Source: Azospirillaceae bacterium (lineage in GTDB: Bacteria > Pseudomonadota > Alphaproteobacteria > Azospirillales > Azospirillaceae). Taken from it: a DNA stretch of 64,000 bases. The stretch is from contig DASQNC010000044.1 of NCBI GenBank assembly GCA_035645145.1, positions 1 to 64,000 of the forward strand. Reading direction: 5' to 3'. A model generated the notes under the pieces. The model saw nothing but the letters and a program-made list of their open reading frames with translations, was not told the origin of the DNA and did not search any database. Positions within the stretch are counted from its first letter, which is position 1. The number at the start of each line of letters is the position of its first letter. The translations under genes and the position numbers were made by a program. Positions 9,798 to 57,683 of the stretch are shown here, in pieces.

Positions 9798-9980
9798 CGA
9801 CGCCTCCCGCGATCCGAAGCGGGATGATTCGGCGCGCCATGCGCGGGCGGAAGCCGGGCAGACGGCGCTCGTCCGCAAGGTGCGACACCGATCGCCACCG
9901 GGAATCGCCACCTGGGCGTCTGGACGTATAAGGCCTAACCTGCCTTTATGCGCGTTCCCTTCGGGGACACACGAAGGAAC

Positions 9981-10898
9981 ATGAGCTCTCGCGCACCCTC
10001 CGCCCGGCCCGACCAGGACAGCTCCGACCCCAATGGGCTTGATGCGCCGTTCGAGGTGCTGGCACCGGGCGAGCAGGTGCTTCCGGTCGTACTTGCCTCG
10101 CCCCACAGCGGATGCCGTTACCCGCAGGCATTCCTGGACAGTGCGCGCCTGTCCGGACTGGCCCTGCGCAAGTCCGAGGACACCTTCGTCGACGAGGTCT
10201 TCGCGCAGGCCCGCACGCTGGGCGTTCCGATGATCCGGGCCCTGTTCCCGCGCGCCTTCCTGGATTTGAACCGCGAGCCCTTCGAACTCGACCCCGAGAT
10301 GTTCGAGGACGCCCTGCCCGCCTACGCCAATACCCGCAGCCCCCGGGTCCAGGCCGGGCTCGGCACCATCGCGCGGGTGGTCGCCACAGGCGAGGAAATC
10401 TACAGCCGCAAGCTGCGCTTCGACGAGGTGCTGGACCGGGTGAATCGCTATTACCACCCCTACCACGCCGCCCTGAAGGATCTGGTCGAGCGGACGCGCC
10501 GGCGATTCGGCTGGTGCGTGCTGCTGGACTGCCACTCCATGCCGTCGGCTGGCGCGATGTCGGAGGGGAACGGGCGACCGCAGATGTTCGATCTGGTGCT
10601 GGGCGACTGCTTTGGCAGCGCTTGCGCACGGGCCGTCACCGATACCGCCGAGGAGGTGGCAGCCGGCTTCGGCTACACTGTCGCCCGCAACAGCCCCTAC
10701 GCCGGTGGCCACACCACCCGCCACTATGGCCGGCCACGCCTGGGCGCCCACGCATTGCAGATCGAAATCAACCGGTCGCTGTACATGGACGAGGCGCGGT
10801 TCACGCGCAAACCCCACCTGTCGACGCTGGCGGACCACATGACGGCACTGGTGGAGGCGATCGGCAGGCTGGAGTTGAAGGGGGCGTGGCGGCCGTGA
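9981..10898 (+). CDS. N-formylglutamate amidohydrolase family protein
   Basis: 305 aa from the ATG at 9981, preceded by GAAGGA; an earlier in-frame start at 9948 lacks such a site. The family hydrolyses N-formyl-L-glutamate, the last step of one histidine-degradation route, but many alphaproteobacterial members stand apart from hut genes as here. Visible family motifs are SPHSGCRYP near the N-terminus, DLNREPFELD, the metal-site segment LLDCHSMPS and the C-terminal ALQIEINRSLYMDE. It is divergent from cpdR and overlaps the next gene (GTGA), so the two are co-translated. The true substrate is uncertain. Confidence 0.85.
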   Translation: MSSRAPSARPDQDSSDPNGLDAPFEVLAPGEQVLPVVLASPHSGCRYPQAFLDSARLSGLALRKSEDTFVDEVFAQARTLGVPMIRALFPRAFLDLNREPFELDPEMFEDALPAYANTRSPRVQAGLGTIARVVATGEEIYSRKLRFDEVLDRVNRYYHPYHAALKDLVERTRRRFGWCVLLDCHSMPSAGAMSEGNGRPQMFDLVLGDCFGSACARAVTDTAEEVAAGFGYTVARNSPYAGGHTTRHYGRPRLGAHALQIEINRSLYMDEARFTRKPHLSTLADHMTALVEAIGRLELKGAWRP

Positions 10899-11497
10899 GC
10901 CCCGGACCTGACAGGCCGGGCAGCCGTATCGTCCTTCGGCCCGCGACCACGGCCGACCTGCCGGACATCCAGGCCATCTACGCCCATCATGTCCGCCACG
11001 GCCTCGCCAGCTTCGAGGAGGTGCCGCCCGATCTTGCGGAGATCACCAGACGCTGGCTGGACCTGGCCGGACGCGGCCTCCCCTATCTGGTCGCGGTCGA
11101 GGCGGGCGAACCGGTCCCGGAACCGATTCTCGGCTATGCGTACGCGAGCCTGTACCGCCCCCGGTCCGCCTACCGGTTCACCTGCGAGGACTCGGTGTAC
11201 ATCCGCCCGGGATCGGAGGGCCGCGGCATCGGCCGCATGCTTCTGGCGGCGCTCGTGGACCACTGCACCGCCCGCGGCTTCCGGCAGATGGTCGCGGTCA
11301 TCGGGGACAGCGCCAACGCCGCATCCATCGGGCTCCACCGCGCGCTCGGCTTCGAGTCGGCCGGCGTGCTCCGGGCGGTCGGCTTCAAGCACGGGCGTTG
11401 GGTGGATACGGTGTTGATGCAGCGCGCACTCGGCCCCGGCACGGAGCATTCGCCCGGTTTCGGCGCCCCGGGCCCGCTGGATACCCCCGGAAGCTGA
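10895..11497 (+). CDS. GNAT acetyltransferase, phosphinothricin-acetyltransferase type
   Basis: 200 aa. The GTG start overlaps the stop of the upstream gene (GTGA), with GAAGGGGG upstream. The GNAT acetyl-CoA site is visible as GSEGRGIGRMLLAAL, followed by IGDSANAASIGLHRALGF, which is characteristic of Pat/Bar-like N-acetyltransferases that acetylate amino-acid analogues such as methionine sulfoximine and phosphinothricin. The N-terminal RPATTADLPDIQAIY and SFEEVPP also fit. The physiological substrate is unknown. Residues after about 185 are a low-complexity tail. Confidence 0.85.
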   Translation: MSPGPDRPGSRIVLRPATTADLPDIQAIYAHHVRHGLASFEEVPPDLAEITRRWLDLAGRGLPYLVAVEAGEPVPEPILGYAYASLYRPRSAYRFTCEDSVYIRPGSEGRGIGRMLLAALVDHCTARGFRQMVAVIGDSANAASIGLHRALGFESAGVLRAVGFKHGRWVDTVLMQRALGPGTEHSPGFGAPGPLDTPGS

Positions 11498-11540
11498 CCG
11501 GCACCGCCGGTCGAGCGTCATCACCGCGGGTTGGCGCACG

Positions 11541-11634
11541 AAAAAAATGGGCCGTGGTGATCCACGGCCCAAGTTTAGGGAGGAAACGCCCAAGAAGTGC
11601 GTTACGGATGGCCGCAACCGCAGCCATACCGCAC
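11541..11634 (-). ncRNA. Probable trans-acting small RNA with exposed anti-Shine-Dalgarno stretch
   Basis: Read on the minus strand, about 94 nt: a 5' stem-loop (arms near 11597-11600 and 11631-11634, with inner arms ATGGC and GCCAT), an unpaired stretch holding TTTCCTCCCT, then a perfect 9-bp terminator stem (GGGCCGTGG / CCACGGCCC, 11549-11570) followed by seven Ts. A well-spaced promoter lies just upstream. The layout resembles alphaproteobacterial sRNAs that expose CCUCC motifs to block ribosome-binding sites, such as the alpha-r14 group; that family assignment is a guess. The reading frame through it runs straight across the terminator, so it is unlikely to be protein-coding. Confidence 0.65.
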
Positions 11635-11639
11635 TGCAC

Positions 11640-11668
11640 AATATGATGCAGGTGCGAACGATTTTCAA
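11640..11668 (-). promoter_or_regulatory. Sigma-70-type promoter for the small RNA
   Basis: On the minus strand the -35 box TTGAAA (11663-11668) and -10 box CATATT (11640-11645) are separated by exactly 17 bases. The predicted start is around 11633, at the base of the first hairpin. Confidence 0.55.
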
Positions 11669-12009
11669 GCCGCTTGACGCGGCCGCGAACGAGTTTCGAA
11701 TTGCCCGCTGGCTCGCCGCCCTTTGAAATCAGCGGCAAAGCGTTGATTCCGCCTACGGAGCCGGCCCCGGGCGTGGCCTGGCAATGCTGCATTGCAGCGC
11801 CCCCCCCCCTTGTCCGCCAGGCCGACCACCTCAGGCTCCGTGCCTGACGCCCCATTGCAGGCTCACGCCGGGGCACCACGCACCTTAAGGCCAAAATCGC
11901 CGGGCCGAGAACGCCAAGCCCGGCCGAGTTGTTACATCGGCCAGAATCAAGACCGGCGCTTCGTCGGCAGGCTGCGGGAATTGGCCCGTTCATCGAGGGA
12001 GGTTGCGGC
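11669..12009. other. Intergenic region upstream of otsA with a C10 tract
   Basis: No gene is visible on either strand. It must carry the otsA promoter. A run of ten Cs occupies 11800-11809. A GGGAGG ribosome-binding site for otsA is at the downstream end. Confidence 0.5.
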
Positions 12010-13404
12010 ATGAGCCGCTTGGTCGTGGTGTCCAACCGTGTGGCACTGGTCGACGAAGGCAAGCAGGCGGCCGGTGGGCTCGCCGTCGCAATGGCCGAGG
12101 CTTTGCGGCAATCCGGCGGCATCTGGTTCGGCTGGAGTGGCCATGTCGTCGCCGAACCCACAACCGAGCCGACACTGTCGCACCAGGGTCGCCTGACCTA
12201 TGCGACCGTGGACCTGAACCAGCGCGACTTCGAGGAATACTACAACGGTTATGCCAACTCGACCCTCTGGCCCTTGTTCCACTACCGGCTGGGCCTGACC
12301 AGCTACAGCCGGCGCAACTACGAAGGCTATCAGCGGGTCAACGCCCACTTCGCCGACTGCCTGACGAAAATGTTGCAGCCCGATGATTGGATCTGGGTGC
12401 AGGACTACCACCTGATCCCGCTGGGCGAGGAGTTGCGCAAGCGCGGGTGCCGGCAGCGCATGGGCTTCTTCCTCCACACTCCATTCCCCGCGCCGGAACT
12501 GCTGGTGGTCCTCCCCAACCACGAGGACCTCGTGCGCAGCCTGTGCGCGTACAACGTGGTGGGATTCCAGACCAACCACGATGTGCGGGCACTGGCCAAC
12601 TACATCCGCTACGAGGCCGGCGGCAGGGTCGAGGAGCTGCCGGACGGAGGTGTGCGGATCTCGGCCTTCGGATGCAGTGTCCTGGCCCGGGCGTTCCCGA
12701 TTTCCACCGACACCGAGACGCTGCGTGTTCTGGCCGAAGCCAATGCCCACACCCGTACGACCGAACGGCTGCGCCAAAGTCTGGTCGGCCGAAGGCTCAT
12801 CATCGGCGTGGACCGGCTGGACTACTCCAAGGGCCTGCCGCAGCGCTTCGAAGCGTTCGGGACGCTGTTGGAGAACCACCCGCAATACCGTGGCCAGGTC
12901 TCGTTCCTGCAGATCGCTCCGCCAAGCCGCTCGGACGTGCCGGAATACCAGGCCATCCGCCGCGACCTCGAGGCGCTGGCAGGACATATCAACGGCCGAT
13001 TCGCCGAGTTCGACTGGGTTCCCATCCGCTACCTCAACTCCGCCTTCGGGCGGAAGACGCTGGCGGGCTTCTTCCGGGCGGCCCATGTGGGCCTGATCAC
13101 GCCGCTGCGCGACGGCATGAACCTTGTGGCCAAGGAGTACGTGGCCTGCCAGGATCCGGGCGATCCGGGTGTGCTGGTGCTCTCCCGGTTCGCCGGGGCG
13201 GCGGAGGAGTTGGACGCGGCCTTGATCGTCAACCCGTTCGATGTGGAAGGCGTGGCCGACGCGCTGGAGCGCGCCCTGTCCATGCCGTTGGAGGAGCGGC
13301 AGAAACGCCACGCCGCCATGATGAGGGTCTTGAGCAGGAACGACATCACCGCTTGGCGCAAAACCTTCATCGAGGTGCTGGCCGACAGCCGCGTGGCAGC
13401 CTGA
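12010..13404 (+). CDS. otsA: Alpha,alpha-trehalose-phosphate synthase (UDP-forming)
   Basis: 464 aa. OtsA transfers glucose from UDP-glucose to glucose-6-phosphate to give trehalose-6-phosphate, an osmo- and stress-protectant precursor. The family (GT20) motifs are all present: SNRVA and AAGGLAVAM at the N-terminus, [47 protein letters not shown], and [14 protein letters not shown] near the C-terminus. The start has GGGAGG nine bases upstream. glk follows three bases after the stop and would supply glucose-6-phosphate. The phosphatase gene otsB is not next to it and was not found in the window. Confidence 0.95.
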
Positions 13405-43986: not shown

Positions 43987-45533
43987 GTGGCGACCCAGGC
44001 GCGGGAAAGATCCAGGAAGTTCGACATGTTCGCCTCGACGCCGCGCACCGGGGCACGGATCGCCCGCAGGGTTTTGACGAAGTATGGGATCACGGCCGGG
44101 ACCTCCTGGTTCAGGATGGCGGCCATCTCATCGGCCAGACGGCTGCGTTCGGCCGGATCCGCCGCCCCTTCGAACGCGTCGAGCGCGCGCTCGAACCCTT
44201 CGTTCCGCCACTTGGCGACGTTCCAGGGCGCGTCGCCACGCAAGGATTGGGCGAGGATCTGGGACGGGCTGGCCCGCGTGGTCCATTCGGTGATGCAGAA
44301 CGGAATGTCCGGCCAGCGGGCATAGAACAGGTTGCTGGGTTCCACGCGCAGCCTCACCCGGATGCCGGCAGGCGCCAGCATCTGCTGGACCGCGGCGGCA
44401 AGCTGCGGCAGCTCCAGGAGCTGGTGGGTGGACAGCTCGACCTCGAACCCGCTGCTGTGACCGGCGGCGGCCAGCAGGCGCCTCGCCTCGGCCACGTCGG
44501 GCATCCGCTGGGGCACGGACAGGCGCAGCGGATAGATGGGGGCGATCGGGTGGTCGTTGCCCACCCGGCCCCGACCACCCAGCATGCCCTGCACCAGCGC
44601 CTGCCGGTCCAGGCACAGCGCCACCGCCCGGCGCACCCGCGAATCGTCGAAGGGCGCCTGGTCTGTCCGCATGGTGATCTGGCGGTGGTCGCCGGCCTCG
44701 GCTTCGAGAAGGCGGATGGCGGGATCGCCCGCCACCACCCGCGCATCCAGGGTGGAGAGCTGCTGCACCACGTCCGTCTCACCCGCACGCAGGGCCAGCA
44801 GCATGGGCGACGCGCTGTCGTGGACGCGGATTTCCACCCCGTCCAGGTGCGGGCGCGGAGCGTCCCAGTAGTCGGCGAACCGTTCGAACCGGGCGCCCAC
44901 CTGCGGCTGCCAGCCCACCAGGCGGAACGGCCCGGTCCCGATGGGCCGTTCGGCGAAGTTGCCCGCATAGTCCGCCGGCAGGACGACCGCCTGGTAGGTC
45001 TGGGTGAAATAGGGGAAATCGCCGACCGGCCGATCCAGCCGGAAGACCACCGTATGGGAACCGGCCTCGGCCACACCCTCGGGATCAAGAAACGGCAGCG
45101 CGCTGCGGGCCGGGGACTCCGACGAGGGCGCCACCAGCCGGCGGAAGGTCGCGACAACGTCGGCCGCGGTCATTTCGCGCCCGTCGTGGAAGCGCACGCC
45201 GCGGCGAAGCTGGAATGTCCAGGTCCTGTTGCCGTCCGACGCCTCCCAGGCGGTGGCCAGCACCGGGCGCAGCGTCAGGTCCGGCTCGACCCAGACCAGG
45301 TATTCGGCCACCTGCTGCACGATGGCGATGGCGCCGGGAGTGTTCAGCTTCAGCGGATCGATGCCCGTGGCGGCCGGTGCGGCCACCCGAAGCGTGCCCC
45401 CGCGCCGCGGCGGGTCCTGCGCCGATGCCGGTAGCGGATGAAGGACCGAGGCAACTCCCGCGGCGACCGCGCCGGCGACGAAGGATCGGCGCGGGATGAT
45501 GAACCCGGCCGACGGGAAATCCTTGCTGCGCAT
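43983..45533 (-). CDS. ABC transporter substrate-binding protein, family 5 (SBP_bac_5)
   Basis: 516 aa, start ATG 45533 with GGAGGAACGC upstream. The N-terminus IIPRRSFVAGAVAAG is a Tat-type signal ending near ASAQD. The family-5 opening RRGGTLRVAAPAATGIDPLK and the segments WTFQLRRGVRFHDGREMTAADVV and RRAVALCLDRQALVQ are diagnostic of peptide/nickel/glutathione-binding proteins. It is the first gene of the operon. The 221-base gap upstream, shared with the divergent PRC gene, should carry both promoters. The ligand cannot be named from sequence. Confidence 0.93.
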   Translation of the reverse strand: MRSKDFPSAGFIIPRRSFVAGAVAAGVASVLHPLPASAQDPPRRGGTLRVAAPAATGIDPLKLNTPGAIAIVQQVAEYLVWVEPDLTLRPVLATAWEASDGNRTWTFQLRRGVRFHDGREMTAADVVATFRRLVAPSSESPARSALPFLDPEGVAEAGSHTVVFRLDRPVGDFPYFTQTYQAVVLPADYAGNFAERPIGTGPFRLVGWQPQVGARFERFADYWDAPRPHLDGVEIRVHDSASPMLLALRAGETDVVQQLSTLDARVVAGDPAIRLLEAEAGDHRQITMRTDQAPFDDSRVRRAVALCLDRQALVQGMLGGRGRVGNDHPIAPIYPLRLSVPQRMPDVAEARRLLAAAGHSSGFEVELSTHQLLELPQLAAAVQQMLAPAGIRVRLRVEPSNLFYARWPDIPFCITEWTTRASPSQILAQSLRGDAPWNVAKWRNEGFERALDAFEGAADPAERSRLADEMAAILNQEVPAVIPYFVKTLRAIRAPVRGVEANMSNFLDLSRAWVAT

Positions 45534-45754
45534 GCGTTCCTCCCCCCGTGTGCCCATGCCCTGCGTCCGTGGCCGCACGGCCGTTCCGGAACGGCCGCGT
45601 CGGTCGGGCGCATGCTGCCAGGGCAACTCGCAATGCCGCGAGCGCCCCATGCGCAGGAACGCCATGTGGACCGCCGTGTTCACCGAACGTGGAAGACCAA
45701 CCCCCTATGAACTGACGGCGCCTGCCGCCGGGGGCCGGAACCGACGGAGGACGA

Positions 45755-57232: not shown

Positions 57233-57401
57233 ACGCGTGCATTGCCGACCTCGGCCCAATTCGGACCCGGGAAGAAAGAGGCTCAGGCCGTGCGGGTTGG
57301 CACGCCAACCGCACCTTGGCGGACGCCCTGTTGACGGGTTTCATCCGGAGTTGCTTCAATGATCCCGTCCATCCCCGGTGGGATGGCGACATATCGCTTG
57401 T

Positions 57402-57546
57402 TCTCAGGGCAGGGTGAAATTCCCGACCGGCGGTATCCCCTCGTCCGCGAGGGGGAGCCCGCGAGCGTCCCGCGACCCAAGGTTGCGGGGTTAGCAGACC
57501 CGGTGCGAGGCCGGGGCCGACGGTACAGTCCGGATGGAAGAGAATG
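57402..57546 (+). promoter_or_regulatory. FMN riboswitch (RFN element)
   Basis: The conserved RFN elements appear in order: ttctcagggcagggtgaaat, cccgaccggcggta, gagcccgcgagcg, ttagcagacccggtgcgag, ccggggccgacggtac, agtccggatg and aagagaa. FMN binding represses riboflavin genes. It lies upstream of ribB, with 137 bases between the element and the start codon, in which translation control or attenuation could act. Confidence 0.97.
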
Positions 57547-57683
57547 AGCCGGTCACGAGGGGCGCCCGCGTTCATGCGGCGGCCGTCGACGACCTGCGCC
57601 GGCGTCCCGGAAATCCGTCTCCGTGCCGCCGTCCAGTCTCTTTGCGCCCTGATTCAGGCTCGCCCATGACAGGAGTGAGATCC

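Follow-up and report, generated by a model that had tools for sequence, protein, structure and literature searches.

A gene-free stretch lies upstream of an otsA-type gene in this Azospirillaceae DNA, and the question is whether it holds a small RNA gene and, if so, of what kind. An initial annotation proposed a minus-strand transcription unit there, with an exposed anti-Shine-Dalgarno stretch that could repress many mRNAs. The window (the whole stretch analysed, 64,000 nt) answers in favor of a real, well-formed gene; it belongs to a known family at a known locus, and is not new in kind.

The locus and its predicted transcript

The sRNA unit is on the minus strand, inside the intergenic gap between the GNAT and otsA genes. 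The surroundings are as follows.

9948..10898, plus strand: N-formylglutamate amidohydrolase (FGase; PF05013, E 5.5e-74)
10895..11497, plus strand: GNAT acetyltransferase (PF00583, E 1.4e-13), convergent with the sRNA gene
12010..13404, plus strand: otsA-type glycosyltransferase family 20 (trehalose-6-phosphate synthase; PF00982, E 1.2e-127), divergent from the sRNA gene

No Pfam-supported gene lies between the end of GNAT at 11497 and the start of otsA at 12010. Far from this gap, the window also carries an FMN riboswitch at 57396-57549 (RF00050, 109.7 bits). The elements of the unit itself are these.

11663..11668, minus strand: -35 element TTGAAA (sigma-70-like promoter scan)
11640..11645, minus strand: -10 element CATATT, with a 17-nt spacer to the -35 element (same scan)
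11541..11633, minus strand: predicted sRNA transcript, ~93 nt (start placed, +/- 2 nt, from promoter spacing; fold)
11603..11633, minus strand: 5'-terminal hairpin UGCGG...CCGUA, upstream of the Rfam model (fold; compensatory changes in relatives)
11586..11602, minus strand: weak hairpin ACGC-A-CU-UCUU-GG-GCGU, within the RF00519 model (Rfam match; fold; orthologues)
11577..11586, minus strand: alpha-r8 core 10-mer UUUCCUCCCU, anti-Shine-Dalgarno, the presumed seed (Rfam match; orthologue alignment; identity with SisA-D)
11541..11571, minus strand: Rho-independent terminator with a 10-bp stem, GAUC loop and seven Ts (pattern scan; compensatory changes)

The 17-bp-spaced promoter of the initial annotation was recovered: TTGAAA-17-CATATT is the sole sigma-70-like site in 11400-12050, with 0.1 expected from shuffles. 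Many syntenic orthologues have TTGAAA, TTGAAG or TTGATC at the -35 position, and CATATTGTGCAGTGCG at the -10 region is common to many Azospirillaceae orthologues; in L102, from the same genus, the RNA is kept, yet the promoter was missed by the consensus scan. The distance between the predicted start near 11633 and the last T at 11541 is 93 nt, close to the ~94 nt first claimed. An RNA of this length has a minimum free energy (MFE) of -47.1 kcal/mol vs -28.8 +/- 3.1 in dinucleotide shuffles (z -5.9; 0/200 equally good), and the 67-nt core folded alone still gives z -4.8. Its transcription would be expected from the homologues described below; a survey of sRNAs in Azospirillum brasilense provides no expression evidence, because the Rfam matches among its listed sRNAs are of the tRNA family only (PMC7685610).

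The 5' hairpin, the unpaired TTTCCTCCCT and the terminator with its seven Ts, which make up the rest of the unit, are likewise in place. The surrounding 10-mer, UUUCCUCCCU, has a single copy in the window (0.04 expected) and is single-stranded in the MFE fold save for its first U, which closes the preceding weak hairpin; in the shorter fold the first two Us are paired. The terminator stem spans 11571-11548 and the T run 11547-11541. Each shuffle is expected to yield 0.8 such patterns, so the bare terminator pattern lacks significance; the terminator is conserved in relatives with compensatory changes.

Family assignment

A covariance search against Rfam had been suggested as a check, and it identified the RNA. 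The window scan gave the following match.

11534..11607, minus strand: RF00519 (suhB/mmgR), full model 1-77 (58.4 bits, gathering score 41, E 1.9e-9)

Rfam describes RF00519 as 'Makes More Granules Regulator RNA', mmgR; it corresponds to the alpha-r8 family, so that the RNA belongs to a family already known, a point that the initial annotation missed. Work in Caulobacter lists the hallmarks of alpha-r8 RNAs as a weak hairpin, an internal single-stranded UUUCCUCCCU and a Rho-independent terminator; FGase is the gene to which these RNAs are usually linked, with one copy adjoining a putative FGase gene in most species (PMC12559287). The window locus has all four: the weak hairpin, the core, the terminator and the FGase linkage, with one GNAT gene separating FGase from the sRNA gene. 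We therefore read the RNA, with a probability of about 0.9, as the FGase-linked copy of the alpha-r8 sRNA (RF00519; MmgR/SisA), which would act through pairing with Shine-Dalgarno sites.

The closest experimental counterparts are SisA-D of Caulobacter crescentus, in which the identical core UUUCCUCCCU likewise follows a weak hairpin (PMC12559287). The two sets also share the Rho-independent terminator, the FGase linkage and the number of siblings per genome, four. The window RNA differs from SisA in its lineage, in the GNAT gene between FGase and sRNA, in its longer 5' hairpin and in its otsA neighbor. MmgR of Sinorhizobium meliloti resembles it in a full-length RF00519 match, an anti-Shine-Dalgarno core and the presence of Hfq in the genome; however, MmgR is 77 nt long and the sole copy in its genome (PMC12559287, PMC7143759), whereas the window RNA is predicted at ~93 nt, has a 5' hairpin that the model does not include, and is one of four copies. 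MmgR limits the accumulation of PHB granules in S. meliloti, and its direct target is not known (PMC7143759). Control of PHB storage through phasins, and regulation by NtrC/AniA, are features of MmgR only. The genome studied here has three phasin genes; their start regions lack an obvious AGGGAGGAAA-like site, and the link between MmgR and phasins is therefore not visible here as direct pairing.

Conservation and synteny

Conservation across related genomes had been named as a further check. The alpha-r8 family is found in 45 of the 59 related genomes searched, including every one from the same taxonomic family. When named genomes were scanned with the ortholog-set core, 70 stretches were recovered, and almost all of them belong to Azospirillum, Nitrospirillum, Niveispirillum, Skermanella, Inquilinus and relatives; this puts the window within or beside Azospirillaceae. 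Three of the loci recovered (L161, L163 and L180) are titled Mycobacterium sp. KBS0706 and carry Inquilinus-like copies of the RNA; the title is probably a misidentification. Copy number is usually one to four; five relatives of genus g7 (G007, G016, G025, G030 and G034) have 10-14 RF00519 copies each.

Gene order is conserved along with the RNA: no fewer than 10 related genomes have FGase-(GNAT)-sRNA(-)-otsA, and so do named Azospirillum, Skermanella and relatives. By tblastn, FGase, GNAT and OtsA were all detected in L102 (same genus), L060, L063, L030 and L082, and FGase with OtsA in L052, L069, L074, L080 and L055. In the larger set, FGase and OtsA both lie near the sRNA in at least 33 of 79 distinct copies, a lower bound since many stretches are short.

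Within the RNA, different parts vary in different ways. The core UUUCCUCCCU is invariant in 14 aligned orthologues, as is GTAACGCAC..CTTGGGCGTTTCCTCCCT, bar one base in the same-genus relative; the core with its flanking GUAACGCAC...GGGCG is invariant or nearly so. The terminator and the 5' hairpin vary with compensation, both sides being changed in 7 of 24 predicted pairs in the same 14 orthologues. The initial annotation had named a lack of such changes in homologous loci as a refutation; their presence speaks for the RNA. A 5'-terminal hairpin precedes the weak hairpin in 57/57 distinct Azospirillaceae sequences, with the base TGCG..CGTA; its pair 5 is G-C in 20 of these and A-U in 18. Pairs 5-10 are standard in 79% of cases vs 63% when the right arms are re-dealt among sequences (maximum 70% in 500 shuffles); this control leaves relatedness in, and the comparison is therefore not a probability. 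Over pairs 1-10, pairing is 87% in register and drops to 26% and 46% when the arms are shifted by one or two positions. Because this compensated hairpin sits upstream of the model, the transcript in Azospirillaceae probably extends beyond the 77-nt RF00519 model.

Alternative explanations

One could suppose that the hairpin and T run are merely a bidirectional or convergent terminator for GNAT, and the promoter a chance match. The stem does lie 51 nt past the GNAT stop, and the region is not short of terminator-like patterns, as the shuffles above indicate; in the plus direction no T run follows the stem. This account is nevertheless barely credible: the Rfam match, the invariant core and a hairpin lie outside the terminator; and the RNA is conserved where the GNAT gene is absent from the locus (L052, L069, L074 and L080, for example). 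It was rejected on the conservation of the 10-mer and of both upstream hairpins outside the terminator. Very unlikely, in turn, is the idea that the window copy is degenerate or silent and that its role is filled by the other three alpha-r8 copies in the genome. Those copies exist, and expression of the window copy is a prediction; but it is the best of the four against RF00519 (58.4 vs 33-40 bits), its promoter, core and terminator are intact, and across the family compensatory changes preserve its stems.

A different family of anti-Shine-Dalgarno RNAs, merely alpha-r8-like, might also be envisaged, such as AbcR (alpha-r15) or CcsR ('cuckoo'). AbcR1/2 and the window RNA would be alike as anti-Shine-Dalgarno trans-acting sRNAs, on the window side by homology; a partial homology of AbcR RNAs to RF00519 is reported, and they too have CU-rich anti-Shine-Dalgarno motifs (PMC7143759). 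AbcR1/2, however, are 114-120 nt long with two such motifs, and are encoded by tandem genes beside lsrB; the window RNA has one CU-rich motif in ~93 nt, a full-length RF00519 match and the FGase linkage. The CcsR, or cuckoo, RNAs are marked by a CCUCCUCCC loop nonamer. This nonamer is absent from the window RNA, which reads UUUCCUCCCUAAACUU there. Synteny and the exact alpha-r8 core led to rejection of membership in either family, an assignment that we regard as very improbable.

Mechanism and candidate targets

As an alpha-r8 RNA, the window sRNA would be an Hfq-assisted trans-acting repressor at Shine-Dalgarno sites, by homology with members studied elsewhere. The sigma-70-type promoter would give the ~93-nt RNA; the 5' hairpin and the weak second hairpin would keep the core UUUCCUCCCU single-stranded; the terminator would end the RNA with a U tail, a structure to which Hfq usually binds; the core could then pair with G/A-rich Shine-Dalgarno sites (AGGGAGGAAA), and the pairing would block translation of a set of mRNAs or destabilise them. 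SisA acts in this manner in Caulobacter: experiments there show a broad set of mRNAs repressed, with the help of Hfq, through the same 10-mer, and a sponge, CrfA, titrates SisA (PMC12559287). The broad repression proposed in the initial annotation thus draws support from a homologue with an identical seed. An Hfq gene is found in the genome, and dependence of the window RNA on its product would be expected by the same analogy, as would its physiological role.

Candidate targets were listed by a single pattern, GGGAGGAA-N(1-9)-ATG. There are 24 such sites genome-wide, with GGGAGGAA 1-9 nt before ATG, vs 3 for the reversed pattern; this excess mostly reflects ordinary Shine-Dalgarno sites, and because these give the same excess it is not counted as evidence of regulation and the list is one of candidates only. 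Twenty of the 24 open a frame of at least 90 aa with a Pfam match, among them the following.

L196, L197, L207, L208: solute-binding proteins of ABC transporters (the L208 site falls inside the window, at 45531-45544 on the minus strand)
L198: thiolase
L203: 2-oxoacid dehydrogenase E2
L195: acyl-CoA dehydrogenase
L206: catalase
L199: ferritin-like protein

By analogy with the family, the likeliest targets are probably mRNAs for carbon metabolism and for transport and solute uptake.

Sibling copies and a CtrA-like box

The genome contains exactly four GCGTTTCCTCCCT sites, each one a copy of the RNA. The window copy scores highest against RF00519; the three others fall below the gathering score (39.9, 39.6 and 33 bits).

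L002, G000:C68:137593-137682: sibling alpha-r8 RNA
L003, G000:C74:39909-39988: sibling alpha-r8 RNA
L004, G000:C16:107164-107248: sibling alpha-r8 RNA

L002 also has a weak, sub-threshold match on the minus strand (L002:1508-1570) to RF02837, anti-hemB of Burkholderia (32.5 bits, gathering 49.5), perhaps due only to the shared anti-Shine-Dalgarno core.

All three siblings have TTAACCAT upstream; the FGase-linked window copy is without this box. In Caulobacter, by contrast, the sibling promoters have no common motif (PMC12559287). TTAACCAT is reported to be a form of the CtrA site without a gap, alongside TTAA-N7-TTAA (PMC6180460). Either TTAACCAT or TTAA-N7-TTAG stands 45-60 nt before the sibling UUUCCUCCCU core. 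Across the 59 genomes, TTAACCAT-N(25-55)-TTTCCTCCCT has 9 matches, in seven genomes of three genera, and the reversed pattern 0; relatives' copies with the box include L114 and L116-L120, and the TTAA-N7-TTAG variant is found in two further copies, L031 and L112.

From their sequence, these boxes suggest that some of the siblings are under cell-cycle or motility control. The siblings may accordingly be split by control in this genome and in some other Azospirillaceae, the FGase-linked copy having a plain sigma-70-type promoter and the others a CtrA-type box; this is a tentative proposal, to which we would give rather less than an even chance. The observation on sibling promoters is the only part of the analysis that might be new.

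The window sRNA, then, adds another well-supported member to a family already known throughout Alphaproteobacteria. Its value is modest: a clean Azospirillaceae orthologue, a 5' hairpin backed by compensatory changes, and siblings with CtrA-looking promoters. These siblings point to an explanation, open to experiment, for the retention of several same-seed copies in some lineages; if it is true, a single anti-Shine-Dalgarno seed would be delivered both constitutively and under cell-cycle or motility control.
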